Origin: Mesodorylaimus sp. YZB2_4
Lineage: Eukaryota > Nematoda > Enoplea > Dorylaimida > Dorylaimidae
Length of the DNA stretch: 64,000 nucleotides
NCBI GenBank assembly: GCA_030248295.1
Contig: JASANH010000020.1
Span: 23,667 to 87,666 of the forward strand
Direction: 5' to 3'
The notes below the pieces were generated by a model. It made no database searches, had not been told where the DNA came from, and worked only from the letters and a program-made list of their open reading frames with translations. Shown one piece after another: positions 1-64,000 of the stretch (position 1 is the stretch's first letter; each line of letters begins with the position of its first letter). The position numbers and the translations under genes are program-made.

Positions 1-784
1 CCATGCTTGACCATGTGTGCGTCCAATTTTACTTGATAGAGGTACATGCCGTATACTACTGCCCACATTGAGCCTGACTGGCCAGCTGCAGTCTCCATTT
101 TTTTTGGTCACCCAAGAAGTCGGCGGGAAGATGGGGCCAGTGGTGGGCGAGACGTGCTTTTGACCATCCAATGTGATCGTCAGCTGCTCGCAGTCTGGAA
201 AATGCCAGACCAGTCACATCGATTTCTACGTCTCCAATGTTTTGTCAAAAATCGTTACGAGCAACGCCTTGTTGATCCTCGACTCTTGGGGTGCACAACA
301 GCAGCAGGGTAGTTTCGAGAGCCTGGGTGAATTAGGCGTTAAGATTAAAAGAATGGTGATACCCCTTGGCGCCACAGCGACGACCCTGCCGCTCGACGTA
401 TTTCATAATCGTCAATGGAAGAGGGTTGTGAAGAAATTTTACGATTGTGCGGCAGTGAACAAGCTAAACATTAATCTGTATCAACGCGATAATATTATTA
501 AATTGCAATCGCTGGTCCATCATTTGTTCAGCCACCATTAATCCATCCCATTGGGCCAATACGCCAGCTTTGCATCTGGCCAGCGCCCTGATCGCCCACC
601 GCCCTTCGAAACTGTCAACAGCATTCTTTTCCCACCAACCCTGAATATCTGCAAGAATTGCACGCATAAGGCATTCATTCGATGTCCATATTGTCAAGTC
701 GATTTGTGTTTTAACAAATTTTTTGTGGAATATCACAATCATTTGGAAGCCGCTACGAGTGTGCTCGATTGGAGTTTGGTGTGA
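1..784 (+). pseudogene. pogo-like DDE transposase relic with C-terminal zinc-binding tail
   Basis: One reading frame, open from about position 92 apart from two stops, resembles the DDE_1 (pogo/Tigger-type) transposase core, which cuts and rejoins transposon ends in the nucleus. Visible landmarks are a LILDSW block with Asp at 281-283 and a IPLGATATTLPLDV block with Asp at 395-397. These match the second and third catalytic acids of the family; the first would lie upstream of the window. Past the core, 640-750 encodes CKNC, RCPYC and LCFNKFF, a cysteine-rich tail like those in related transposases. TGA at 161-163 and TAA at 539-541 break the frame, so the copy is dead. No terminal inverted repeats are visible because the left side is cut off. 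The family call is solid; the exact superfamily is less certain. Confidence 0.7.
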
Positions 785-12449: not shown

Positions 12450-14064
12450 CTATCTTATTCTGAGGAGATAAGAAGACTTTACAAAGATCTCGTTGAAACG
12501 ATGTGGTGTCATGGTATACCTAGCTCTTTTAAACAAAAGTCGAAGGCGCTTCACGAGTGAAACCCAAAGGTCAGTGTCTGAATTCTTTTCCTCATAAACC
12601 ATTCTAGCAAACCAAATGCATCTCTGCGCTGATCGTAGAATCAAGTTCACAATCATCTTCAGATGTAAGAATTTTCTGCCAGTCACTCCAAAAATCCTGC
12701 TTTTCTCTTTCAAAGTGATTGGATAAGTCTTCGCGTCAAGACCCACGCTATGATCACTCAAAATACTAAAGTTAGCACTCAGAACGGCTTTCCGAACGTC
12801 CTTGTATAAACGGGGTGCCTGCTTAGAGCTGATCTGCGACAAAGGTGCCTTCTCAACTTTACCATAAAAGCAATCGAAGAACGAGTGTCGTACAGCCTTC
12901 TCCTGAGCCGAACGCCTGCGTATCAACAACATCAAACGAAAGGCGAGCACTTTAAAGCCAATGTCAGGGTACCCCACTCCTCTTCGCTTTTTGGCCCTTT
13001 TGAAAATGAGCTTATTTATCTTATTTTGCTTTGCCGGGTGCCTTAGATATGAATCCATGTGTGTCTCAGCAAACCTTTGCAAATCATTTTTAGGCGCAAT
13101 TACTGATGCTAAATACCAAAGTTTGGACAGGAAATAAGTATTAGCCACGTATGCACTACCGAAAGAGGACACCTCAGTGCGCGGAATCTTATCTCCCAGC
13201 GTGCCAATGTGTCCTCGCACTGCTTCCCGATTTTTCGTTATCTCCATCCCCTCGTTTTTAATTAAGAAACCGTATACTTTAACTCGACTCACAACGAGGT
13301 CTTGCAGGTCGTGTAATAGGCGGAATAGCCCTACATTGGCGAAGATACCGCGGGGGGCGGATGGACTCAAAAACCTTCCAGGCAGGTCAGCTAGTCGTAG
13401 GTGCCTGAGACCTCAACCCGACGGGTTTCAGCCTCGCCTGGATGAGCGTATCGAGCGGACAACGAAGGCAACTGATGCGCTGTATGCGGCGGCCAGTCAA
13501 GGCAACTGCATACTGCTCGTGCATAAGGCGGCCAGTTAAGGCAACCAAATGCACTACCTTATCCACAGGCCAAACACGCCCACTACAGTCGGCATCCAAG
13601 CAGTCCTTTTTCATCTCACCCAGCAACAGAATCTTTGTTTTGGCTCTTTTCAATGTTGCCCCAGAAGTCCTATTGTACCAATTGTATACCTCAAACACAC
13701 GCTTTACAGACTTTGAGTCAGCTAGCAAATAATTTGTGTCGTCTGCATAGTTGTTCAGTTTTAGTTGTTGCCTAAACACATCGATGCCTTTTGCTGTTCT
13801 GTCCCTCCTTATGAAATTGGTTACAGTCTCAGAGACCAACGCGTAGAGCAAAGCCGACAGGGGACAGCCCTGCCTGATTCCTCTGGTCAGACTGAAAGGC
13901 GAGGACACGTATCTATTTACCTGACCTGACGAACTCATTGATCCTATTCTGTAGATGATACCAACCCATTTTTGGAAAACAGGCCCCAGTCCAAAAAAAT
14001 CTAGCACTCGGAAAAGATATTCCCATTCGATGATGTCAAAAGCTGACATATGATCCACCCACAA
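12450..14064 (-). pseudogene. LINE reverse transcriptase and C-terminal region
   Basis: The 225-codon frame 14064-13387 carries SAFDIIEWEYLFRVLDFFG, then RGIRQGCPLSALLYALV and NNYADDTNYLLAD. These are RT motifs with an intact YADD catalytic centre. A second frame (13370-12450, 306 codons) continues with KIPRTEVSSFGSAYVANTYF and SKLWYLASVIAP, typical of the post-RT region. The two frames are out of register near 13380. A duplicated VALTGR segment at about 13440-13545 suggests a short tandem duplication there. Endonuclease and ORF1 are missing, so this is a 5'-truncated copy. The clade is uncertain; L1/Tx1-like or CR1-like are both possible. Confidence 0.65.
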
Positions 14065-15345
14065 AAGTAGGTGGATACCAGTGGATTACATGGATTAGAC
14101 TGACATACTAGTACAATCGGATGATGCTGCCGATTTTTCTTGTCGCAGTCATTACCAGACATGCCGCACACGCTTAGCTGAAAATCGGAAGCCGCCTGCC
14201 TGGTCGAAGTCGATAGCGGCAGCAATGTATCTAAAATTTGTCCAAGTTAAACATAAAAACCCAGTGTTACTACTGATGATCTCAAAAGCTTTACCTGCTT
14301 CATGGTCTTGTAGCCCAGAGAAATTTTGGCGTGGTTCTGGTCGCGGTTCACTGATCCTTTGAATACGCTGATGACAAGCGTGGCATGTTTAAATCTGATC
14401 GATACAATCAGCACTAAAACAAGCAATACTATTCTTTGCAACACACTATCGGACGGGTAAGCTCACTCTTGAAAACTGGTTGCCCCAGTTGAAGGAGTAG
14501 CACCACATTGAACGCTGTTCTGCTCCATAGGCAACGACCTAAGATAATGGGTTTCACGGTCGTACCAAACAGATCTACTGTATGCAAATTTTCTTACCTT
14601 CTCGTTTAAAATTTTTCGAAAAGTTTTCAGTTCAGACTTCAGATTCGACAGACGAACCGCCTTGCGCAAATAAGCATGGCCAACGCTATTGACTTGACCG
14701 CGATAATCCGTATAGATGACTGCCGCGAAACGTGTCGGTTTTTTCGGTTTCGAGTTTTCTTTGAATTGCTTGATCTTCGACTTGAACCCAGCGAGAATCG
14801 CAGCATCAACAGCGCCACGATGAGACTTATTACAGGTACCTTTAAAAAATATACGTACACTACTGGGCTATCTTCGGAAACTCGCAAAAACAAAGGCAGT
14901 AGAAAACCTTGAACTTACGCTTTTTCGCCGTATCAATCCTGCTTTTAGAAGGCAGTTCCGCCGTAAAAACAGTTCAGCAGAGGTTTCAGTTACACCAGTT
15001 TCGTACATGGCAAACAGCTGTTCGCATTCGTGAATTAAAAATATCCACAATATCTTACTCAACAAAGTTCCAAATGACGGTGGGTAATATGGAAAAAATG
15101 ATTTTATTTATTTAGCTTTGCACTCTAGACAGATCTATCTTGATATGATGAGGTCTATGATATTTATGTCTATGATGAGTGAACTTATTTTGACGCAAGG
15201 GCATTGCGATGGATAAATATGGCGCACAGTGGCACAGCAAACGATAGATTCATATCTCGTGCGGGCACCGCTCGCAAGGTGCCGTCATCGCGCAGAGCCT
15301 ACCGTATGCGATGTTTCCGCCTCGCAGTTAATACCTGGAGGGGGA
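14065..15345. other. unclassified region
   Basis: Several short frames exist on both strands, including hydrophobic minus-strand ones near 14250-14440 and 14640-14890. None has a family motif or an unambiguous start and splice structure. Confidence 0.35.
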
Positions 15346-26436: not shown

Positions 26437-26450
26437 TGGTAGCAGAACGT
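26437..26450 (+). promoter_or_regulatory. probable tRNA primer-binding site of BEL
   Basis: TGGTAGCAGAACGT begins two bases after the LTR. Its TGG start pairs with a tRNA CCA end. The tRNA species is not assigned. Confidence 0.55.
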
Positions 26451-26517
26451 GGTTGGTTGGTTCGGTTTGGTTAACGTTGGTTCGGTTGGTCGTGGGACGG
26501 GCAACGGAAGATCGAAA

Positions 26518-29458
26518 ATGGCAGCGGTCTCGGGTGGCCGAATTCGCCAACGTCTGGGCCCTGCGAAGAAGATTCTACGCGCAGCAATGGGGCGAAGTCC
26601 GCAAGTAGAACTGGAAACGGTCGAGTCAAGGCATCTCGCGAAGTTGGAAGAAGAGTGCGAAGGATACGTAAGTAAATTGGACGGTCTTTATGAGAAATAC
26701 GAAGCGCTGATGCGGGAGTTGGATGGTGTTGAGGAAAATGGGACAACGGAGGAGGAATCGTTGGAAGCGGCTGAAATCGAGGCTGAAGTCGTCGAGATCA
26801 GGGCGCACGTGCGAGCTAAGTTGAAGGCAGCCGCAGCGCGTAGGCAGCGTGAAGTGGCAGAGGGGGAACGGGAACGTCTGCGGGTCATGGAAACGGAGGA
26901 GCGCAGGCAGAAGCTGCAGAAAGAGTTTGAGATTATGGAGCGCGAGTCGGCGCGGCGAATGGAAACGCAGCGGGAGGCCATGGCAGCAGCAGTACAAAAT
27001 GGTAATCCGCAAAATAACGGCAGCGTAAGCGGCGCTGGTAACGTAAAGCTTCCAAAGCTTACTCTGGCAGAATTTGGCGGTGATCTCATGCAATGGAAAC
27101 CATTTTGGGATTCCTTCGAAGCTACTATCGATCGTAATAGGAGCTGCGATAACCGCACGAAGTTGGACTACCTCATGAAGTCGCTCAAGGGTGAACCGCT
27201 CGACATGGTCAGGGGATTCGCTATCACCAACGAAAATTATGAGGTCGTCGCTCGCCGTTTGAAACAGCGCTATGATCAGCCAGATCTTATCATTCAAGAG
27301 CATGCTATTGCCATAAATGAACTCCCAGTCGCGCATACAATGACATATGTCCCAGTCATACTGAATAAGTTCGAAATGCACTTGCGATCAATTGAAGCTC
27401 TCGGCAGAGGGGTCGACGACGCCTGGGTTATCACATTCTACTCAAAGTTGCCAGTCGAGTTCCAGAGGCGGTTGCAGGAGAAAACAGGAAAGAAGGCATG
27501 GAAAGTCGAGGAGTTCCTGGAGGCAGTTCGTCAAATCGCTGATATCCACTGCTATAGCCCGACTCATGGCAAGCACTCGCCTGTAGAACGAAAAGGGAAA
27601 CCTCAGAGCGAGGGCCAAAATCGCAGAGACGATAAATCCGCTCATTATCATCGCACAACGGAAACGTTGTTGGTCCACTCGAAGAAAGTTCCAAATTGCG
27701 CCTTCTGCGATGAAAAGCATTACTCCGATGAGTGTACAAAGTTCAAAACGGAAGAGGAACGCCGCGCCCAGTTGAAAAATCGCTGCTTCATATGTCTGCG
27801 GTCAAATCATCTCGCAAAGGATTGCAAAGAGAAGCAAAAACCATGTCGCTACTGCAAATGGGAAAATCCAAAAATCCGCAAGCATCACTCCGCCTTGTGC
27901 CCGATCAAAGAAAAATCGACACCTCTTGAGGAAAACGCGAAACCAGAAGGAATCGCTCTATTTGCAAATACCAAACAGTCATTCTTGCAGACTGCGGTTG
28001 TAAACGCTTATCAGTTCCTAAGGAATAAAACGCCCAGGCAGAAGGTCAATCTTGTCATCGATCCAGGATCGACAGATACGTACATACGCAAAGCCATCGC
28101 TGACCAGTTACAATTGAAAGAGCTCAAACGCGAGAAGATTTGGGTTGGAAGGTTCCAATCGAAACCGGTCTGCATCACTACGCCTATCGTAAAAGTCCAT
28201 CTCGAAACTCGTGATGGGACTCGCATCAGTGTCCAAGCAAAGGTTCTGGACGAAATCACTACGCCGCTATATCGCCCGCAAGACGCATATGAAGCTATCG
28301 CTGGAGAATTAGAAGAGTACGACATCGCAGACTCGACGCTGCATGAAGACAAACCATTCGGAGTCGATCTGCTACTAGGGAGCGACTACTACCCGCTGGT
28401 CGCCATAGGCGCCCCTATCCGAATTCGGGATACAGTCAGCATCATCCCCACCAAGTTTGGCTACGTCATAGCTGGTCATTTGGAGGTACACTCAGATAAC
28501 CATCAGCAACAAACGGCCATGCTCACAATCACGCAACCGTCGGTCTATGGAATAATGCCATTTGAAGAAACACTTGGCTCAGATCAAACGCAGTGCGAAC
28601 TCAGGGATCTATGGGAACTCGAAAAGGTTGGTCTGAAACACGAGAAGAAGGAAGAAGAAGACGAGAAGGCACTCGCTTATTTCAATCGCACTATCGCGTA
28701 CAGAAATGGCCGATATGAGGTCAAGTGGCCCTGGAAGGACCCAGAGGTTAAACCGCCAGGAAATTATAAGCTCGCTCATGATCGCGTTAGTTCGGTTTGC
28801 AAACGCTCGCTCATCCTGAAGAAGTACGATGAAATCATCGAGGATCAATTAAAGAAAGGAATCATCGAAGAGGTTCCGGAAGCTGCAAAGGAACGGCCGC
28901 AAGGTCCAGTGCACTACTTAGCTCATCATCCGGTCATTACGCCACAGAAAACAACCACAAAGGTTCGCATAGTATATGATGGCTCTGCGCGCAGCAAAAA
29001 CGCAGAACGAAGCCTAAATGAATGTCTTTATCGTGGTCCAGTCATCCTCGAGGATGTAGGCAAACTCCTGATTCGCTTCCGCTTACATCAAATCGCTCTC
29101 ATCTCCGACATCGAGAAGGCATTCTTGCAAGTTGGCTTACAAGAAGAAGACCGTGATGTTACCCGCTTCATCTGGATCAAAGACATAACCAAATCCGCAT
29201 CGCCAGGCAACTTAATCGAATATCGTTTCACACGAGTGCCATTCGGGGTGATCTCGAGTCCATTCTTACTCGCAGCAACCATTTTGCATCATCTCAATCT
29301 GAAAGGCGGACCTGTTGCAGAAAAAATCGCTCAGAATATCTATGTGGACAACGTCATCACTGGCTGTCATACACTCGAACAGAGCAAGCAATTCTACGAG
29401 ACTGCCAAACAACTCTTCGCCATCGCTTCAATGAACCGGAAGACACAAAGCCAAAGAA
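26518..29458 (+). CDS. BEL gag-protease-RT polyprotein (front part)
   Basis: The first ATG in frame is at 26518; the frame stays open for 980 codons. Residues about 25-175 form a highly charged coiled coil (many EERR and KLEEE stretches). Residues about 180-345 match the DUF1759 Gag domain (KLPKLTLAEFGGDLMQWKPF, WDSFEATID). Three Cys-rich knuckles follow at about 27700-27900 (CAFC, CFICLRSNHLAKDC, CRYC). The protease block has VIDPGSTDTYI with Asp at 28060, a DUF1758-type active site with DPG instead of DSG/DTG. RT has IVYDGSAR, ISDIEKAFLQVGL and YVDN at 29341-29352. From 29459 the sequence collapses into low-complexity C and A runs, so the end of RT is lost. Confidence 0.9.
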
Positions 29459-29636
29459 AAGTCCCAGAGAAGGGGGGCGGGAGGGAGAGGGGACACGGAA
29501 GAGACCCCCCCCCCCAGGGAAAAACCCACCCCAAAAAAAAAAAAAAAAAACCCCCCCCCACCAAAAAAGCCCCCCCCCCCAAAGCCCCAACAAACAACCC
29601 AAGAGAGCACACCCCCCCCCCCCCCACCCTGGATAC
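29459..29636. other. low-complexity block replacing part of BEL pol
   Basis: About 180 bp of G-rich then C/A homopolymers (C11 at 29505-29515, an A run of about 20 bases and several C runs of 8-14). The frame stays open by chance and encodes Pro/Lys/Gly runs. About 400 codons of RT thumb and RNase H expected here are absent. It may be a real deletion filled with simple sequence, but it looks more like a sequencing or assembly artefact. Confidence 0.6.
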
Positions 29637-31426
29637 GGTCAGTCAAGCCGCTCTCAGTCTTTGTCGAGAATCGAGTACGTGATATCAAGAAAAACCCACA
29701 TCTGCGCTTTCGCTATGTGCCTACGAAAGACAATCCGGCAGACACAGCCACGAGAGGAAGGTCAAGCGCCGAACTGCAGAAAGATTCGCAATGGTGGCAT
29801 GGCCCGAAATGGCTAATACATCCTGAATCGGAATGGCCTGGCAACGAACATATGTTGGATCAGACGACACAGGAAAACATTGAATCAGAAGAGGCTAGAA
29901 AGAAAACGCCGCTGTTTACAATGGTTGCCACGGCGAGGCCACCAGACCGATTAGAAGTTCAGAACTTTTCAAGCTATACACGCCTGCTTCGAATCACAGC
30001 ATTGTGTCAGAAATTTGGACGGAAATGCCGAAGTCAAGACAGCTATAAGGGAGAACAACTTACGGCGCATGACATAGAAATCGCAGAGTCATACTGGATA
30101 AAACGAGATCAAGAAGCGCACTTTGGAGAAGAACGACAACGTCTAGAATGTGGAGAATCAGTACACATCGGACAAATCCCGCTAGAACTGGATGCCAAGG
30201 GTCTGATTCGAGGTCGAGGTCGGATCACACACGCTCCTCTGAACGAAGAGGCAAAGAAGCCAATCCTGCTATCGAGGAAATCTGAGCTTGCGAAGTTGAT
30301 AATCGCACACACTCACGCTCAACTGTGTCACGCTGGAACGGCACAGACGCTCGCTCATCTTCGCCAACGCTTTTGGGTCACCGCCGGACGGCAGGTTGTG
30401 TTCAATGTCATTCGTCGCTGCACTCAGTGCAAAAAGCTCGATGGAGGTCCATTTACTGCGCCAGAATCTCCAAGCTTACCGCGTGAACGAGTCAATGTCT
30501 TCACACCGTTCGGGTCGATTGGCGTCGACTACCTTGGTCCACTCACAGTTACAATTGGGAAGAACAAACTCGCAAAGCGTTGGATCTGCCTATTTACATG
30601 CACCGCAACAAGGGCAGTCCATCTCGAGGTCGTTGAGGGCTTAGGCGCTGACGACTTTCTCAACGTTTTCCGCATCTATATCGCACGCCGACAAAAGCCA
30701 AAAGTGGTCTGGTCGGACAACGCCGGTCAATTCACCGCAAAGCACGTACAGAGGTTCGCTGCTGACAATGGAATTCAATGGAAACGTATACCTGAACGGG
30801 CCCCCTGGATGGGTGGTTTCTACGAGCGACTTGTGGGAATGGTCAAGCGAGCGCTACTCAAGACAGTCGGGAACGCACTACTCAATGCGCGACAGCCACA
30901 GGTGCTTACAGCAGAAATATAAGCCGTAATTAATGACCGCCCTCTCATTCATGTGGGATCTGAACTTGGGGAAACGGTAATCACGCCAGCACATTTCATA
31001 CATCCTGGAGAATCACCTCGCGGAGAAAGTGTGGCAACACCCAACGAACACGCTGTCAAAGAATACTGGACGCGTCTACAGAATATATACAACGCATTCG
31101 TTAAAATATGGCAAACCGAATATTTGACCTCGCTACGAGAGCGCCAAAGGGTACAACTGAAGCAAGGAAGAATTAAGTCGGCATCTACACCGCAGATTGG
31201 AGAAATCGTTCAGATTAAATCAGAAGACCCACGACATCGCTGGCGCACAGGCATTATCAAAGATTTCGCCACAGCAACTGACGAAAAGATCAGGGTCGCC
31301 ATCATCAGGCTGACCAATGGACAAGAAATCAAACGGCCAATAGTTCATTTATACCCATTAGAAATCGTCAGTGGGGAGTGTCGCGGATTGGAGAGCAACC
31401 GCGAGGGTTGTAAAGAAGAACGATAG
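29637..31426 (+). pseudogene. BEL RNase H end, integrase and C-terminal domain
   Basis: The true frame resumes with SVFVENRVRDIKKNP and RYVPTKDNPADTATRG, the BEL RNase H/connection block. The integrase has an HHCC-type finger (HTHAQLCHAGTAQTLAHLRQ to CTQC, 30308-30425) and the catalytic acids in IGVDYLGP, WSDNAGQF and FYERLVGMVKRA. The frame meets TAA at 30920-30922, where relatives keep a Glu codon (TAEIEAV), so one G-to-T change probably inactivated it. The same frame continues to 31426 through a DUF5641-like domain (EYWTRLQNIYNAFVKIWQTE, PQIGEIVQIK) and runs into the 3' LTR. Confidence 0.85.
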
Positions 31427-39111: not shown

Positions 39112-40335
39112 CTAACGATTACTGGGTATCGCGCAGTAAGCTTTTATTATAATGCCCGAACCAATGACTGCACTCCGTTCTAAACGCTCGATAACCGAGC
39201 TAAGCTTATTCTGGGGTATGGGAAGTTCCGCCAAGGTCGCAACTAGGCGCTCGGTGACTTCTCCGCAGGCTCTGATAACTATCGGATGCACGGTAACTAC
39301 GTAACCCCAGTCACGACCTAACTCGCAAGCTAGGTTGTCACCTGGGGGAAAGTGACCGTCCAATAAAGGATGGTCCTCTTTCAACATGGAATTTTCGGCA
39401 TACTTGGCGTATTTACGACATTCTTGCTGACGCAAGTTAGAGAACCAAGACACCGACACTTCCATTATATATATCCGTTTTGCCTGCTTATCTATCAATA
39501 CGATATCGGGATGATTATGTCCTAATTTTCTAACGGTAATCAACGGGTGATCCCGGTAAAGATCGTAACATTCATTCGTCATTACGCCCTCGATTCTCTG
39601 TCTGAAATGACGGGATTCGAACCCGCATTCAATACAGATACTATTGTACAGACTCAGTGCCACGCCGTTATGCCGCTTGACCATCAAACTAGGTCTCCAG
39701 TGCGGACATAGCGATAACACGTGTTCAGCCGTCTCTTTTCTCAGACGAGCCGGTAAGGTCGAACATTTCAACCTGCACGTTTGGTCTGTTCCAATATGCA
39801 TTGGATGACCCCTCAATAACAGCTGGCCTTCTTGCGCGGCCACTATATTGTTCACAATTCCAGAGCTAAGGAGTCCTTTCCGCAACCAAGCAAAGCTATG
39901 GCTCAAGTCAAGGTCCTGGTCTCGAAACGGAGCTCCCGCCGTTTCCAGCGAAAGCAGCTCTCGATACTTGGACTTCTGAAACTTCTCGCGGAGTCTACTC
40001 ACTATTTCTCTGGCCGCGTCGGTGGGTATGTAAAAGACCATTTCGAACCCGACATCGGACTCCTCTCCCGTACTTTCGCGCACAGTGAGAGTCAGCTGCT
40101 CAGGGTCATCGATCACCTCGAGCGTCATGTCCAATCCGAACTCTTTAAGTACGTTCCAAAAGTCACTGACGATAGCTCTTTTCTTTCGTTTAGTCAACGC
40201 TTGCATCAAGGAGAAACAGGGCTTAAGCTCACTGGTCATAGCATTATAACAGTAACTGTAAACTATTGACTCGTAGAGTGCCTGTTCAAACGAGCTTAGA
40301 CCCAGGCCTCCCTTGTCCGTGTCCAGGTACATCAT
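39112..40335 (-). CDS. R2-like thumb, zinc finger and restriction-like endonuclease
   Basis: 407 codons, open. The start (MMYLDTDKGGLGLSSFEQAL) aligns with the region after the RT fingers/palm in copy 2, so it is a frame-shifted continuation, not an independent gene. A C-X3-C...H-X4-C finger (CRLKC to HVLSLC, about 39780-39710) leads into the endonuclease core: NHPDIVLID and RIYIMEVSVSW, the PD...(D/E) pattern of R2-type nucleases. It ends IERLERSAVIGSGIIIKAYC, again conserved in copy 2. It would nick the target DNA to prime reverse transcription. Confidence 0.75.
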   Translation of the reverse strand: MMYLDTDKGGLGLSSFEQALYESIVYSYCYNAMTSELKPCFSLMQALTKRKKRAIVSDFWNVLKEFGLDMTLEVIDDPEQLTLTVRESTGEESDVGFEMVFYIPTDAAREIVSRLREKFQKSKYRELLSLETAGAPFRDQDLDLSHSFAWLRKGLLSSGIVNNIVAAQEGQLLLRGHPMHIGTDQTCRLKCSTLPARLRKETAEHVLSLCPHWRPSLMVKRHNGVALSLYNSICIECGFESRHFRQRIEGVMTNECYDLYRDHPLITVRKLGHNHPDIVLIDKQAKRIYIMEVSVSWFSNLRQQECRKYAKYAENSMLKEDHPLLDGHFPPGDNLACELGRDWGYVVTVHPIVIRACGEVTERLVATLAELPIPQNKLSSVIERLERSAVIGSGIIIKAYCAIPSNR

Positions 40336-41831
40336 GCAACTGAGCTGAATCTATGCCGAACTTTCATTCGCACGAGCAAGGTGCGAACGGCCTCGTCTAA
40401 TTTTCTCGCGTCCCGAACCAAGGAAGCGAACTTCCCAGCTCCTATGATTATGTTCGAGAAGTAGTACCGAGCCTTCGGGATGGGCCCAGAATTAAAAATG
40501 CCCACCTTTTGCCGAAAGGTTAACTCGGACTCCCAAATTACTTGGGTTCTCAACATTACTGACTCCTCGATTCGTCGCCACGCATCGGCGTGACTGACGT
40601 TACCTGATTTCTCCACACCCAAGTACTTATAGACAGCACGAAGTCCGAGGGTGGGAATTCCATCGCACGGATCCTCTTCGCGAGGAACCGCATCAGGCGT
40701 GGAATCTTCTTTCAAGTGATAGAATGCCGATTTCTTTCGGTTAATCGACATACCTATTTCGTTGGCTAAAATTTCGAGCTCATGCACAACTCGTACGAGC
40801 TGCGCCGGATCACGAGCGTATATGACTAAATCGTCCACAGAGTAGATATGGTTTAGCATTAAGGCATTAGGCCCTATGCGACCACCTATCATGCCATGCG
40901 CCGTGACGTACAGAGGTGATTGAGTATTCAGGTAGTAGGTTACGGAAGCGACGCATAGCCCGAAGATCAGCGGGCTCAAGGTATCACCTTGCAGTACTCC
41001 GTTACAAACCCTTAAGGGTCTGCTCTTTCGCAGTCGCCCTTCACTCACCCCTTCGAATACGAGTTCCCAATTGGACATTTAGCTAGAGATCATTCGCCGA
41101 AGGCTGCCGTCAATTCCAATAGTTTCTAGGACAAATCGTATATAGTCATGCGAAACACTATCGAATGCTTTCGCAAAATCGATCCAGCATACACTGAGAC
41201 CGGGGTCTCGCCGGTATTTCGCATCTATCACCACGTTACGATCCAACGAATGAGCTAGGGTGCAACCCCATACGCCCTTCTTAAGTGCTACCTGATTTCG
41301 CGGTAGACCTGTATCATAACGCCCGATATCTTCTTGAATCCACCGCGTGATGATCCCCGTTACGAGCTTATAGCAAGTATTCAGGCACGCTATGGTTCAA
41401 TAATTTCCCGGATCATTTCGGTCCCCAGTTCCCTTGTAGAGCGAGACTGCTCTACCTCGGGAAATCCATCTCGGGAGTTCATAGCTTTCATCCTGCCGAA
41501 GCCGAATGACATGAGCGAAAAGCTCTAGATTCGCTACGCTAAGAACCTTCCACCAGAAATTATGAATACGATCTGGCCCAGTCGCTTTCCAGGACCTGGC
41601 TTTACCACATACTTGACGCCAAAGCGCGAGCTCATTTCTGGGCCCGTACATTTGGTCGCCCTTCCAGTGGGAAACATTCTCATTGCAACTTACAGCCCAA
41701 CTCTCGGTCATCCGATTACTGATATAGGACTTATCGATGCCTATAATATTACTCCAGTAGTCCCGGACTGCGTCAATGGGAACGGATTGCCCTTCGTCTT
41801 TCTTACAAAGCGACTCCGAGATTGGTGCCCA
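40332..41831 (-). pseudogene. R2-like reverse transcriptase
   Basis: RT motifs run in order: KARSWKATGPDRIHNFWWKV, WISRGRAVSLYKGTGDRNDP, WIDFAKAFDSVSHDYIRFVL, CNGVLQGDTLSPLIFGLCVA and YSVDDLVIYA with the catalytic VDD at 40838-40830, then GMSINRKKSAF and VYKYLGVEKS. SVDD stands where most relatives have FADD or YADD. In-frame stops at about 41396 (TGA, an Arg codon in relatives) and 41081 (TAA), plus a shift at the 40335 end, break it. Confidence 0.75.
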
Positions 41832-45732: not shown

Positions 45733-46578
45733 CTACTTACGATCTGGTAGCGAACAATGCGCCTTGATAATCCGGGCACTGCCCAGGACTGCGCTTCGCT
45801 CCAGTCTTTCGATGAGACTTTTAATATCGCTGTCACTAAACAGGTCGATATCTCTAATAAATCTTAGGAGATTTTTTGAGACCTCGCCTGTCGCCCCCAA
45901 AACGATCGGTATAACTCGAATTCTGTGGTTCAGATCCCGCCCTAGCTCGGTAGCCAAGTTGTCTCCCAGGGGAAACATCCCATTGGCATCGAGAGGGTGA
46001 TCTTCTGGCAGAGTCGAGTTGATGGCATATTTGGCATACTTACGATTTTCCTGGCGTACCAGGCGAGTATGCCAGGAGACCGATACTTCGAGAACCGTAG
46101 TTACTCGCTTTTCGTTATCAACTAGTACGATATCTGGTCTGTGGTGTGATACTTTCCGAGTCGTAATCATCGGGTGATCCCAGTACAACATGTACTGATC
46201 TTTTTCTCGAACTCCTTCGATGCGCTGATTATAATGCCTTGTTGCAAAGAGTAGCTTTTTGCATATGGCATCATAGAGGGACCTAGCGACACTATTGTGC
46301 CTCTGGACCATTAATGACGTTCTCCAGTGCGGACATATCGTAAGTATGTGTTCCGCCGTCTCTTGTCTTAGTCGTGCAGGCAACTGCGAACAGTTGATTC
46401 TACACGTTTGGTCTCGTTCCCTCGCATACATCGGATGCCCCTTTCGGTATAGTTGCCCTTCTTGAGCAGCTATGACATTGTTCGCGACAGTCGAGCTGAT
46501 AAATCCCTTCTGTAGCCACATAAAACTCAGAGAGGCGTCAATGTCCGGTTCCTTTAATACGGCGCTGGCTACTTCCAA
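45733..46578 (-). CDS. R2-like restriction endonuclease, copy 2
   Basis: 281 codons open: C-X3-C...H-X4-C finger (CRINC to HILTIC), then HRPDIVLVDNEKRVTTVLE and VSVSWHTRLVR, the PD...E nuclease core. It ends IERLERSAVLGSARIIKAHC as in copy 1. Upstream, the same frame continues through a TGA (about 46640) and TAA (46747-46749) into the RT thumb at 47175, so no frameshift is needed. Confidence 0.7.
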   Translation of the reverse strand: MEVASAVLKEPDIDASLSFMWLQKGFISSTVANNVIAAQEGQLYRKGHPMYARERDQTCRINCSQLPARLRQETAEHILTICPHWRTSLMVQRHNSVARSLYDAICKKLLFATRHYNQRIEGVREKDQYMLYWDHPMITTRKVSHHRPDIVLVDNEKRVTTVLEVSVSWHTRLVRQENRKYAKYAINSTLPEDHPLDANGMFPLGDNLATELGRDLNHRIRVIPIVLGATGEVSKNLLRFIRDIDLFSDSDIKSLIERLERSAVLGSARIIKAHCSLPDRK

Positions 46579-47269
46579 TTCGAGAAACTCATCGAGGAGT
46601 TTCGTTTGCCACGCTTTATATAGGATACCGGTAATTGCTCAGGCTGCTTTCGTTGGATGTTCATATGAACATTCGTTTACTATTACGCGACATGTCTCGG
46701 GGTCCTGATCGACTCGCACCTGAACTCCCACAGTTTCTGACACATGTTAAAAATCTGTAGTCAAGGTCCGTTTATTTCGTCTCTTCAGACATTCCATCAT
46801 ATACCAGCAGGGCTGGAGTGGACGGGTACTCGCTATGTAACAGTATGTGTATACTACTGCTTCTAGTGTGGCATACCAGAATGATCCGAGTCCCCAACCT
46901 CCTGTCTCCCGATTGAGATATAGGCGAACCTTGCTATCTGATCGGTGTCTGCACTTTAGACTGACGAGGAAGAATCGGACGTCTTTGTCCAATTTTTCCG
47001 CCTCCGCTAGAATGGAAGAGAATTTGCACACTCCGTAGATTTCGTTCGATGCGAGATATTTGGCCTTTGGGATTGTAATCGCGTTAAAGGCTTTAACCTT
47101 TTGATCGAAGGTTAACTCGCTTTCCCAGATAGCTCTGGTTTTAGACAAAATCTCTTTGCTGCACTTTTCCCACATACCTTTATGGTCGATGGATTCACTC
47201 TTATCCAGACCAAGGTATCAGTAAGTTTCGTATCTGCTTAGTGATGGAATGTTTTCCCTTTCGTCCAGC

Positions 47270-58328: not shown

Positions 58329-59145
58329 ATGCCAAAGTTCCTTCAGCCTCAGCTACTTATTGACCCAGAGGTGGAACTCGTCAATTTCACTTTCACGACT
58401 GTTCGTGACCTGGAGGACTATAACTCTGAGACATGGCCAAAAAATGTTTATATCGACCCTAATGATCCCGATAGGCAACAGACGCTCTTGCGCAGACTCA
58501 ATGTTAACCATGATCAACTTCCAAAATCCGATCGTGAGAAACTTCGAAAAGTGGTAGCCTCAAACTGTGATGTTTTCGCGCTAAACAAATATGAGATTGC
58601 AGTTACGCATTTAGCGAAGCACAAAATCGACAAAGGCGATGCCAAGCCCATTATGACTCGACCTCGTCGCCTGATAGATCGATCGTGAAAGAAGAAATTG
58701 GTAAATTACTTCGTCTTGGTTAGATTCGACCATCCCGTTCTTCTTGGGCATCTCCGATCATTATGGTCAAAAAGAAGAATGGCGATTGGAGAATGTGCAT
58801 CGATTTTCAGGCTGTTAATGCTGTGACACGGAAAGATGCGCACTCGCTTCCAAATATCCACGTAATGTTGGACACATTGCGAGGTAGTACCATCTTTTCT
58901 GTTTTCGATATGACTTCAGGTTACAGCCAGATCCCCTTGGATCCATCAACGGCTGAGAAGACAGCATTTATCACCCCCTCAGGTTCTGGGAATATACAAA
59001 TATGCCGTTTGGCCTCTGCAATGCCCCTGCTGAATTTCAACGATGCATGGAATTGGCTTTGAGTGGTCTCCTTTGGCAATACGTCATGTGTTATCTTGAC
59101 GATATTATTATTTTTAGCAGATCGGTTGATGAACACGAGTCTCAC
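58329..59145 (+). pseudogene. reverse transcriptase of the PWWP gypsy element
   Basis: Frames in order: KNVYIDPNDPDRQQTLLRRL and HLAKHKIDKGDAKPIMTRPR (to a stop at 58686), VKKKNGDWRMCIDFQAVNAV and STIFSVFDMTSGYSQIPLD (58763-58980), then [12 protein letters not shown] and [12 protein letters not shown]. The catalytic YLDD at 59092-59103 is intact. TAG at 59146-59148 separates it from the long ORF in the same frame; a single base change from CAG would explain it. Confidence 0.75.
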
Positions 59146-59154
59146 TAGGCAACT

Positions 59155-62100
59155 GTGTTCGATCGACTTCGATATGCTAACTTGAAATTGGAACCTTCGA
59201 AGAGTTCGATTGGAATGGACAAGGTCGAGTACCTTGGACATTGCATATCGAAAGACGGTTATCGTCCGACAGACGATAAAATCGATAAGGTTCGCAATTT
59301 TCCAGTTCCCCGTAACCAAGACGAACTACATAAGTTCATAGGTCTTGCTAGTTACTATCGATCGTTTATCGAGGGATTTTCTCAACGATCTCGTTCCCTG
59401 AGGCATCTCCTCAGAAAGGGTACCGAATTCAAATGGACAGACGCATGTCAGTCAGAATTTGAAGATCTCCGTCAGCGGCTGGTTTCTCCACCAGTCCTGC
59501 GATTTGTTGATTTTTCTTTACCTTTCCGGTTGAGCACAGACGCTAGCAACACGGCTATTGGCGCAGTGCTGGAACAATACGACCCAGCCCGTCCAACGAA
59601 ACCGTGGCCGGTGGGCTATGCGTCTCGTACGCTCAACTCAGCCGAACAGAAGTATTCGACGATCGATCGAGAATGCCTCGCCATTTATTGGGGCATTCTC
59701 CATTATCGATATTATCTCTATGGTCGCCCGTTTGAGGTATATACCGACCATAAACCGCTCCTACAATGGTATAAGGAGAAAGATCTCGAAGGTAGGAGGG
59801 GTAGGTGGTTACTCAAACTACAGGATTATCTGTTTAGCATCACTCACGCTCGTGGATGCGATAATGGTGCTGCTGACGCCTTGTCGAGATTACCAACAGC
59901 TGATATTGTACTATTTGCAGCATTGCATCCATATCAACGGTGTAATCGATGTAGTGCCTCCGTTTTGGCCGCATTGATTCCTCATGGTTTCACTTCGACG
60001 CCTGCGCCTGTCGCAGCAGAAGAAGTCCAGACCTATCAGGACGCCATCGACATGATAGATGCGCTTCCTGCACCAGAATTCCATTCCACGTCTGAGAGTG
60101 AGTCTGTTCATGATTCCTGCTCTGATCCCCGTAGTGGATATGAATCAGAGAGCGACGATCGTATCGATTGCCCGCCCGAACTCCTGCATAGGAGTCTTCG
60201 GTGCTGGCGATACGTCAAAATTCCAAATGCTTCTTGCGTGAACGAGGTGCTCCCTTCACCTCTTACTGCTGCGTTTTCTATGAATATGGTAGCTTTGACC
60301 AATAAGCTCGAATTACCAGCTATTCCAGAATACGACAGTGATTATGACAGCGCCGTCGATTTGGCAGTGAGTTCGGCGAGCCCGTCTCAGCCTTCTCACC
60401 TGCCAACAGCTCGTGTACACGTCACGGATCGAGTTGATCCTAATGATGCGACTTTAGAATTGTCTGTTCAACCTGATCATAATCTATCTTTAGATTCTGA
60501 CTCTGATCAGGATGATCTCGAATTGATTGATGAATTAGACCCTGATTGTCAGGTGGAAACACAACTCGATATTCCTTCATTGGCATCCGACGTGTTTCCC
60601 GACGCGCCTTCGCGTAAGTTGCTTTATAAGATGCAACGTGACGAAGAATATTTGTTTCAGATTATTCGTCACCTAGAAGGCTATGATTTGCTTCCTGCAA
60701 AGTCAGCACGAATAGCGAAAGACTATTTATTGGACAAGGATGGAATCCTCCCGCATAGGTGGTCTCATCATGGTCGTCTCGTCGAAGGAGCCGACATGCA
60801 CGACAGAATTGTCGTCCCTGCGGTTCTGCATAAATTCATCTTTGATTCTGCCCACAGGGACGCCAATCATCCCGGTTTCGATCGATTATTCGCAGCTTTG
60901 CGATGTAAGTTCTTTTGGCCTTCTATGCGTAGAGATTTGCGCCGATGGTGCTCTGAGTGCGGCACTTGCGCACGATTCAAGCAGCCACATCGATACGAAC
61001 GGCCGCCGATGCAAACAGTGCCCAGAACAGCCCCGTTCGACACTGTTGCGATCGATGTGCAGGGACCTTTCCCTGTCTCCAATAAAGGCAACCGTTTCGT
61101 AGTGGTCATTATGTGTATCTTCACAAAATGGGCCGAAGCCTATGCTGTTCCCGATCAAACGGCCCCTCGCATTGCTCGTCTATTGGTCGATGGATGGATT
61201 GCCCATCATGGATTCCCGAGAGTCCTACTCAGTGATCGTGGCTCAAATTTTCTTTCCCGACTCGTCCTACGCCTTTGCAACGAGTTTGCTATCAAAAAGG
61301 CATCGACGACTCCGTACCATCCTCAGTGTAATGGTAACGTAGAAAATTTGAATAAGCTTATTGGCTTTTCTATGGCATGCTATGTGCACCCTGATCAGAA
61401 GGATTGGGACAACCGACTCCAACTGATCATGATGCACTATAGACATACCCCTCACTCGACAACTAAGGTATCCCCATACCTTATGTGTCACGGACGTGAG
61501 CCTCCTACGTCCTTGGATGTCCTGCTGGCTCGACCCGCCACCCAGCACATCCCGACGACTGATTATGTCGATCATTTGCGTGTTCGCATGGCAAGCATTG
61601 AAGCTAAGGTTCGAGAGAATCTTGCAATTGCCCATCTTCATCAAAAGATGCAATTTGACAAGACATCTAGGCCTCTTTCTTTGGAAGTTGGTGATTGGGT
61701 CAGAAAGCCTAATTACCACTACAAGGAAGGCCTATCTCGCAAACTTAGTCTTCACTGGCTTGGTCCATACGAAGTTGTTATGATCCTAGGTGACACAGGT
61801 GTTATTATCCGTAGTGTCCTGGATCCGACCAAACCATTGGAACGTTGGCATCCACAACTTTTGGTCAAGACCAACGAATCCATCGAAGGTATCAGTGCAC
61901 CTACGCCCGTTGTGGTCGACCCTGCACTGGCAGAAGAATCCGAAACTATTCAAATCGACACTCCTGCTGTGGTTTCCCGTGAACCTGATCAGCGTATGGA
62001 AACGATTGATTCTGGTACTCCTGCTGTGAGTATGCCCCCCGTCCTCACTGACAAACCCAGTGGTGCGTCACAAGGTGGGAAACCAGGTGAATTTCGCCGT

Positions 62101-62529
62101 GGTCAAATTGTGTGGGTCAAGGTCACAGGGTATCCGTGGTGGCCTGGCCTCATCGTCGAATTCCCCGATGGTTATCCTATCGATTTTGAAAACAAGGAGA
62201 AAATCATGCGCACTTATGAAAGTTTGTTCCGCATGTCGGACATTTCTCAAATTTATCGTGTACTCTTGTACAATGATAACATGAACGAAGTTTATGTCCA
62301 CATTAATGCGCTCAAAGACTTCAAGGATCACTTGTCCTATTTTGAAGCGAAATTGAAACAGAAGACGTATCTTCCTCAGAAATATAGAGGTAGAAAATCC
62401 AAATTTCACGAAGCAGTTCGTTTAGCTAAACTTGCAGCTAACGAAAAGGATCTTTTGGATTTCCCAGTCCAGACTTTGGACATGGATAAACTCTATATTT
62501 ATCAGGCTTTACGCTATATCAAATTTTAG
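59155..62529 (+). CDS. RNase H-integrase-PWWP polyprotein
   Basis: 1124 codons, no stop. The frame is a continuation of RT, so the apparent start is only the first usable codon after the TAG. Residues 1-110: RT thumb (KVEYLGHCISKDGYRPTDDK, LASYYRSFIEG). About 120-245: RNase H (FRLSTDASNTAIGAVLEQ, YTDHKPLL, DALSRLP). About 250-490: long acidic Ser/Asp-rich insert. About 559-605: HHCC zinc finger. Integrase core acids D634, D694 and E730 give a D-59-D-35-E triad. LGPYEVV near 869 is the GPY/F module. After an acidic linker, residues 978-1075 form a PWWP domain (IVWVKVTGYPWWPGLIVEFP) with Y993, W996 and Y1039 as candidate aromatic-cage residues. A basic tail (KYRGRKSKFHEAVRLAK) ends the protein. 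It would insert the element's cDNA into chromatin, with PWWP probably reading a histone mark. Confidence 0.88.
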   Translation: MFDRLRYANLKLEPSKSSIGMDKVEYLGHCISKDGYRPTDDKIDKVRNFPVPRNQDELHKFIGLASYYRSFIEGFSQRSRSLRHLLRKGTEFKWTDACQSEFEDLRQRLVSPPVLRFVDFSLPFRLSTDASNTAIGAVLEQYDPARPTKPWPVGYASRTLNSAEQKYSTIDRECLAIYWGILHYRYYLYGRPFEVYTDHKPLLQWYKEKDLEGRRGRWLLKLQDYLFSITHARGCDNGAADALSRLPTADIVLFAALHPYQRCNRCSASVLAALIPHGFTSTPAPVAAEEVQTYQDAIDMIDALPAPEFHSTSESESVHDSCSDPRSGYESESDDRIDCPPELLHRSLRCWRYVKIPNASCVNEVLPSPLTAAFSMNMVALTNKLELPAIPEYDSDYDSAVDLAVSSASPSQPSHLPTARVHVTDRVDPNDATLELSVQPDHNLSLDSDSDQDDLELIDELDPDCQVETQLDIPSLASDVFPDAPSRKLLYKMQRDEEYLFQIIRHLEGYDLLPAKSARIAKDYLLDKDGILPHRWSHHGRLVEGADMHDRIVVPAVLHKFIFDSAHRDANHPGFDRLFAALRCKFFWPSMRRDLRRWCSECGTCARFKQPHRYERPPMQTVPRTAPFDTVAIDVQGPFPVSNKGNRFVVVIMCIFTKWAEAYAVPDQTAPRIARLLVDGWIAHHGFPRVLLSDRGSNFLSRLVLRLCNEFAIKKASTTPYHPQCNGNVENLNKLIGFSMACYVHPDQKDWDNRLQLIMMHYRHTPHSTTKVSPYLMCHGREPPTSLDVLLARPATQHIPTTDYVDHLRVRMASIEAKVRENLAIAHLHQKMQFDKTSRPLSLEVGDWVRKPNYHYKEGLSRKLSLHWLGPYEVVMILGDTGVIIRSVLDPTKPLERWHPQLLVKTNESIEGISAPTPVVVDPALAEESETIQIDTPAVVSREPDQRMETIDSGTPAVSMPPVLTDKPSGASQGGKPGEFRRGQIVWVKVTGYPWWPGLIVEFPDGYPIDFENKEKIMRTYESLFRMSDISQIYRVLLYNDNMNEVYVHINALKDFKDHLSYFEAKLKQKTYLPQKYRGRKSKFHEAVRLAKLAANEKDLLDFPVQTLDMDKLYIYQALRYIKF

Positions 62530-62955
62530 GACCCGTGTCCTTTATAGCACTAGAATGCGCTCGTCGCACCTTGCGATTTTTGAATTCCCGCCTCGTGGTG
62601 GAATCCCTGAATCTGCTTATATCACTCGATTCCTATATCAACTCCAGCCGGATGTGCTGTCCTCGCGTCACGCCACTTGGCGTTGTTTACGCATCGTCAT
62701 TGTTTTCAGCGAACGACTAGCGTCTAGTGCCTTTACTTTCGGTGCTTTAAAATTTTCTTTGGTGATTTTCCGGTTGAATTTTTCTTTTCAAACGAGCTTT
62801 ACTTTGGTCTCAATTTACCAAATTCTAATTTCGAATCTCTTGATTCTCAGTATTTTCTAAATTTACGGGTTTTTCTTTCGTTTTCTATTTTCTTCTCAAA
62901 AATTTCGGGTATCGAGGCCAGTCCTCGTCTAATTTCTCTAAATTTTGCTCAAATT
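62530..62955 (+). repeat. LTR-like block between pol and a gag-like ORF
   Basis: Follows the pol stop directly. It contains CTTTATAGCAC (about 62540), T-rich sequence and an inverted counterpart at 63460-63895. Its position suggests an LTR, but no second direct copy is in the window and the ends are not defined. Confidence 0.45.
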
Positions 62956-63189
62956 ATGGCTCAACAGCTGTCTTCAGCTCAAATTTCTACGCCTTTATTC
63001 GTTGGCATTCATTCTCCAGCTTTAATGACCCCGCCTACTTCCACGCCGGGTCCTGGTTCTATCCAAGGTCCAACTCCGACCTTGGAGCAACTGCACAAAT
63101 ATTATCACGCGTTGGACCCCTTGGTCCGTGATCGCGTAATCGCTTTTGATCAACAAATTCGCGAATTGGTCTCCGAAGTCGAGCAAGCG
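62956..63189 (+). pseudogene. gag-like N-terminus, left copy
   Basis: ATG at 62956 opens MAQQLSSAQISTPLFVGIHS, a Pro/Thr-rich stretch, then a charged helix (LDPLVRDRVIAFDQQIRELV). Homology to the right copy stops at 63189, where sequence reverses. No capsid motif is included, so gag is inferred from placement after an LTR-like block. Confidence 0.45.
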
Positions 63190-63461
63190 TCGCTTAAGCC
63201 AGCAAGAGCTTGCGTGCGACTATACGCTTGTTCGACTTCGGAAACCAATTCACGAATTTGTTGATCGAAAGCAATTACGCGATCACGGACCAAGGGGTCC
63301 AACGCGTGATAATACTTATGCAATTGCTCCACAGACGGGGCCGGACCTTGAATAGATCCAGGGCCTGGCGTCGAAGTAGGTGGAGTCATTAAAGCCGGGG
63401 AATGAATACCCACAAACAACGGAGTAGAAATTTGAGCAGCTGAAGGCAGCTGTTGAGCCAT
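63190..63461 (-). pseudogene. gag-like N-terminus, right copy (inverted)
   Basis: ATG at 63461-63459 opens MAQQLPSAAQISTPLFVGIH. The protein matches the left copy with a few substitutions (PAPSVEQ for PTPTLEQ) and continues through the spacer as YSRTQALAGLSDA before running into the reversed left arm. It shows the spacer belongs to this copy. Confidence 0.45.
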
Positions 63462-64000
63462 AATGCGAAGGGAATGATAGAAAAAATTGAGCAAAATAAA
63501 CGAGGACAGGCCTCGAAACCCGAAATTTTGAGAAAAATAAAAACAAAAGAAAAACCCGTAAATTTAGAAAAAACTGAGAATCAAGAGATTCAAAAGAAAA
63601 TTTGGTTTTATGAGACCGAGATAAAGCTCTTTTGAAAAGAAAATTCAACCGGAAAATCACCAAAGAAAAAGATTTTAAAGCACCGAGAATAAGGCACTAG
63701 ACGCTAGTCGTTCGCTGAAAACAATGACGATGCGTAAACAACGCCAAGTGGCGTGACGCGAGGACAGCACATCCGGCTGGGGTTGATATAAGAATCTAGT
63801 GATATAAGCAGATTCGGGGGTTCCACCACGAGGCGGGAATTCAAAAACGCAAGACGCGACGAGCGCATTCTAGTGCTATAAAGGACACGGGTCCTAGAAT
63901 TTGATATAGCGCAATGCCTGATAAATATAGAGTTTATCCATGTCCAAAGTCTGGACTGGGAAATCCAAAAGATCCTTTTCGTTAGCTGCAAGTTTGGCTA
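63225..64000. repeat. right arm of the right-edge palindrome, running off the window
   Basis: Reverse complement of the left arm with scattered substitutions and small indels, around a 35-bp spacer (63190-63224). The arm is still matching at the window edge, so a second inverted PWWP element probably continues outside. Confidence 0.85.

Follow-up and report, generated by a model that had tools for sequence, protein, structure and literature searches.

A Ty3/gypsy-type integrase with its own C-terminal PWWP domain in many copies and subfamilies of a nematode retrotransposon

The element in the window and its surroundings

The window, by which we mean the whole stretch of 64,000 nucleotides of Mesodorylaimus sp. 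YZB2_4 that was analysed, contains part of a Ty3/gypsy-type LTR retrotransposon, namely the 3' half of a copy that has decayed (Table 1). A single uninterrupted frame on the plus strand (59149-62526, 1126 aa from stop to stop) encodes RNase H, an H2C2 domain, the rve core and a PWWP domain, as read from the open reading frame (ORF) listing and from Pfam searches run piecewise. Upstream of this frame, tblastn with a reverse transcriptase (RT) piece of the related copy L058 matches 58685-59002 in one frame and 58987-59469 in another, one tested RT piece upstream of 59149 contains a stop, and the ORF listing of the window holds no long open frame upstream of 59149. It is the RT homology in two frames, together with the stop, that identifies the window copy as the 3' half of a decayed element. 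The Ty3/gypsy domain order of RT, RNase H and integrase is present, as are the DDE core and GPY/F module of a Ty3/gypsy integrase, and the original prediction of an unbroken frame leading from RNase H through a D-D-E integrase and GPY/F module into a PWWP domain is thus borne out by the ORF, by Pfam and by our integrase alignment (A1). In this alignment the catalytic triad of the window is D146, D206 and E242 (numbering of the translated piece from 60619), and the triad is kept throughout, the sole exception being copy L055 of subfamily B, in which N replaces the first catalytic D.

Table 1. Features of the retrotransposon copies at the end of the window (window positions).
Feature	Position	Strand	Basis
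Reverse transcriptase homology, two frames, decayed in window copy	58685..59469	+	tblastn with L058 RT piece
RNase H domain of pol	59509..59829	+	RT_RNaseH PF17917, E 2.3e-34
Integrase H2C2 zinc-binding domain	60814..60984	+	PF17921, E 3.9e-15
Integrase catalytic core, D-D-E	61027..61344	+	rve PF00665, E 6.7e-10
GPY of GPY/F module	61762..61770	+	invariant columns 382-384 of alignment A1
Fast-evolving linker, integrase to PWWP	61876..62100	+	about 31-49% identity between subfamilies A, B and F
PWWP domain	62101..62436	+	Pfam PF00855, E 9.7e-13, 48.9 bits
C-terminal tail of frame	62437..62526	+	stop at 62527-62529 (ORF listing)
Start of gag-like frame, same element type, after non-coding stretch	62957..63190	+	L032 and L034 continue with the same start
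Inverted second copy: pol end, non-coding stretch, gag start	63224..64000	-	inverted repeats; 88% match on minus strand

The assignment of the C-terminal domain to PF00855 exceeds the Pfam cut-off of 25.6 bits, and an AlphaFold model of it (mean pLDDT 74) predicts a beta-barrel plus helices like those of solved PWWPs, all of the structural matches listed being PWWP proteins. Two details of the original prediction have to be corrected: the domain proposed at 62086..62380 exists but extends past 62380, and its GYPWWPG motif is present but falls at residues 994-1000 when counted from stop to stop, rather than at 992-998. The tail of the window frame as a whole (62050-62526) has a pI of 9.3.

Beyond the end of pol, the inverted copy runs up to position 64000, where the contig itself stops. 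A comparison of copies of the window's subfamily (62530-64000 of the window with L032, L034, L036 and L038-L040) reveals two alternative sequences after the pol end: several copies depart from the window at 62616 and have a different sequence in common from there on, and others continue into gag. The similarity of L034 to the window begins only at about 62037, so that PWWP, non-coding stretch and gag stand in succession there without an integrase, an arrangement in which the PWWP possibly lies inside a long LTR.

The window also holds other mobile elements. At 26443-30922 (+) DUF1759, DUF1758 and a weak RT share one frame, with H2C2 and rve in another, an element that we take to be BEL/Pao-like. 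Pieces of non-LTR-like reverse transcriptase lie on the minus strand at 13387-14085 and 40332-41078 (RVT_1, E 1.8e-13 and 3.3e-10), and similar C-terminal frames are found at 39112-40350 and 45733-46638 (-). Elsewhere in the assembly, L041 and L043 (both on contig C73) and L042 contain COX1-like stretches with in-frame TGA on large contigs, which are perhaps nuclear copies of mitochondrial DNA. The assembly has 133 matches to the N-terminal family of cuticle collagens, which is nematode-specific and marks the host as a nematode; a test for an arthropod host with PF00379 found no match, and found none in any control genome either.

Copies, subfamilies and mobility

The integrase with its own PWWP domain occurs in many copies and in several subfamilies. 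At least 146 PF00855 matches were found in the 145-Mb assembly (150 of 173 candidates scored), and the loci fetched for closer study cover 57 of the 146. In 56 of these 57, integrase homology lies just upstream on the same strand, and the remaining match has only 25 bases of sequence upstream. By our own grouping there are at least nine subfamilies with integrase and PWWP: A (the window and L085), B (L027 and L055), C (L004), D (L008 and L022), E (L044 and L054), F (L081), G (L082), H (L083) and I (L084). In all nine the integrase reads through in frame into a C-terminal PWWP, which scores above the Pfam cut-off, the nine element tails ranging from 30.3 to 61.4 bits. In L058, a copy of subfamily E, gag, a zinc knuckle (CCHC), protease, RT, RNase H, integrase and PWWP form one open frame. 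Nine further small pieces were judged by eye; six of them (L086-L091) resemble element tails, one (L093) is a fragment of the F type and L094 alone resembles a host gene. The last, L092, has a divergent PWWP at 131-700 (-) that scores 26.6 bits, above the cut-off, in a 594-aa frame, and is perhaps a tenth element type.

Gypsy elements without a PWWP also occur in the genome. Among the best 150 H2C2 matches (of 691 candidates), a PWWP match lies at most 2.5 kb downstream in 49; from the 101 H2C2 loci without one, ten were fetched, and in five of these with readable tails Pfam found nothing past the integrase. No Pfam match to a chromodomain was obtained in the window tail or in the nine element tails. 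Chromodomain-like matches are numerous elsewhere in the genome; they lie in short frames, about 72-74 aa long, are spread over many contigs and resemble copies of another repeat.

Three copies of subfamily C, on contigs C48, C55 and C180, could be read at both ends. Their LTRs are 182-184 bp long with TG...CA termini, and the two LTRs of a copy differ by two mismatches and one 2-base gap (C48), not at all (C55) or by two mismatches (C180). Each of the three is flanked by a 4-bp target duplication, of a different sequence in each case, the 3' LTR is preceded by a tract rich in purines, and one base past the 5' LTR comes TGG. The LTR hallmarks of Ty3/gypsy elements (TG...CA, target duplication, purine tract and TGG primer site) are thus present in all three of the copies read at both ends, all of them from subfamily C. 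The frames at the PWWP in the C48 and C180 copies are 2153 aa long. Because the LTRs are nearly identical and target duplications are in place, copies encoding the fusion have moved recently. Where the 3' LTR is complete, in seven copies of the C family, the flanks differ and have no target sequence in common, by which sequence-specific insertion is ruled out; nine short flanks, taken from seven C copies, showed no clear gene by eye and are too short for their gene content to be judged.

These data also bear on whether the fusion might be peculiar to one locus. The window copy, with its broken RT and its place at a contig end next to an inverted copy, would be in keeping with a chance capture, a pseudogene fusion or a misassembly, and the original prediction had itself named a fusion confined to this copy as the sign of such an accident. 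The layout recurs, however, in the fetched loci on many contigs, and recent insertions with target duplications carry the PWWP, which is under purifying selection (see below). Many copies and subfamilies mean that the fusion is neither a chance capture nor a misassembly, both of which are ruled out by the copies, the target duplications and the LTR pairs, and we give a one-locus origin practically no credence.

Conservation and aromatic cage of the PWWP domain

Ratios of dN/dS, calculated by the Nei-Gojobori method on pairs with computable dS, indicate that the PWWP is under purifying selection. In a pair of subfamily E copies the ratio is 0.054 for the PWWP and 0.158 for the integrase; two C/D pairs give 0.097 and 0.12 for the PWWP, values that are rough owing to high dS, and the window tail compared with L034 gives 0.143. 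Between C and D, identity amounts to 41-44% in the linker, 66-69% in the PWWP and 73-80% in the integrase. Among A, B and F it is just 35-50% in the PWWP and 73-81% in the integrase, A compared with B has a dN/dS of 0.24, with dS saturated, and two closely related B copies give 0.51 on very few changes. Judged by these comparisons, the PWWP is kept, yet evolves faster in the branch of the window.

The positions of the aromatic cage, which we take to be Y233, W236 and F266 in the numbering of NSD2, were located by alignment with that protein. Subfamilies B and F retain all three aromatics (F-W-F). The cage is incomplete in A (Y-W-L), C and D (V/I/L-W-F), G (H-W-F) and H (Q-W-F), and broken in E (H-L-F) and I (F-A-F). 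For the window, the original prediction had proposed Y993, W996 and Y1039, of which the third is misplaced, as it aligns with NSD2 F267, off by one; at F266 itself the window's family has L and is incomplete. The phenylalanine of strand beta-3 is kept in 10 of the 11 alignment rows. Reading of H3K36 methylation by these PWWPs is thus only possible, most plausibly in B and F, where the cage is full, and less so in the window's family, the cage being partial elsewhere.

Such variation is what might be expected if the PWWP were a general module for binding DNA or nucleosomes or for building multimers, which would read no methyl-lysine and would raise the efficiency of integration without choosing its sites. 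The cage is incomplete or broken in seven of the nine subfamilies, nine of ten PWWP domains are basic (pI 8.3-9.7, the exception being the acidic domain of subfamily H, pI 5.4), and the seven C copies inserted at different target sequences. Set against this are the three aromatics of B and F and the near-constant beta-3 phenylalanine, as well as the chromodomain of other elements, which occupies the same place and, according to the available text of PMC3350952, acts in targeting. On balance we consider a purely general module improbable, if still to be reckoned with.

Origin, proposed role and known systems

A search with alignment A1, in which the 7,997 best candidates by common words were scored, yielded 32 outside integrases, and Pfam found no PWWP and three chromodomains among all 32. 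One protein, P0016 of Ixodes scapularis, has a gypsy-like integrase and also a SCAN domain and a zinc knuckle. No relatives of the window piece 61549-62526 or of the C-family PWWP region were found in the protein database, which is weak evidence of absence since this database seems to hold few eukaryotes. Viral contigs contained no relative of the window integrase, and with alignment A1 they gave seven short matches to the core only. The earlier statement that no clade with such a layout had been described agrees with the literature matches listed, none of which reports one, within a body of literature that includes few subscription papers and no preprints from bioRxiv. Two candidates for prior reports, PMC3978060 and PMC9817154, were set aside, their available text dealing with host genes and with no integrase-PWWP element.

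In the integrase tree, which has 47 rows, the PWWP label must change twice, and a topology that keeps all 17 PWWP rows in a single clade is not rejected (AU p 0.279). Support is modest (93/81) for the grouping of the chromodomain proteins with subfamily E, and long branches meet in this tree. One or a few captures of the PWWP are possible.

From its position, conservation and charge, and from precedent in other elements, the PWWP of this Ty3/gypsy-type integrase probably tethers the integration complex to nucleosomes at insertion. After reverse transcription the integrase would bring the cDNA ends to chromatin, where its C-terminal PWWP would bind a nucleosome through a histone tail plus DNA; this would hold the intasome where the element inserts and bias insertion, a part equivalent to that of the chromodomain in chromoviruses and of host LEDGF for lentiviruses. 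The PWWP might instead serve some other end, such as escape from silencing or contact with a non-histone partner, and play no part in integration, which would fit its position and conservation equally well. Its in-frame place at the integrase C-terminal end in all nine subfamilies is, however, the site of targeting domains in other elements (available text of PMC3350952), and we regard such a role as very unlikely. Going beyond tethering, we put forward more tentatively, and as something that may well prove wrong, that a clade of nematode Ty3/gypsy elements acquired a PWWP, perhaps in a single ancient event, at the place of the chromodomain; that it served as a built-in address label for the K36-methylated nucleosomes of transcribed genes, with no need of a host tether; and that the cages have since been retuned to other marks by subfamily. 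At least nine subfamilies with differing cages, together with PWWP-less gypsy elements in the same genome, provide a natural experiment in which the influence of a reader domain on the choice of insertion sites can be followed.

The nearest known systems differ in where the reader comes from and what it reads. In chromoviruses such as MAGGY a Ty3/gypsy integrase likewise ends in a fused chromatin reader, but there it is a chromodomain, which for MAGGY is reported to bind histone methylated at H3K9 and to direct integration into heterochromatin (PMC3350952), whereas the present elements have a PWWP, with no chromodomain match in the tails scanned. Lentiviral integrase is linked to chromatin by the PWWP of LEDGF/p75 or HRP2, that of LEDGF being a reader of H3K36me3 (PMC4176367 and PMC8149907, in the parts accessible) with a DNA-binding face beside it (PMC4176367, likewise), but this PWWP resides in a host factor distinct from the integrase to which it binds, whereas in the present elements it lies inside the integrase frame. 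Capture of a host epigenetic domain is shared with retrotransposons that have acquired a cytosine methyltransferase (PMC5890265) or an m6A demethylase (PMC9289625), which, as far as the accessible portions of these papers go, are enzymes, in contrast to the putative histone-tail reader on the integrase described here. With an integrase fused to a reader of silent chromatin already known on the one side, and lentiviruses that borrow a host PWWP on the other, an integrase that has a PWWP of its own would be the counterpart linking these two cases.
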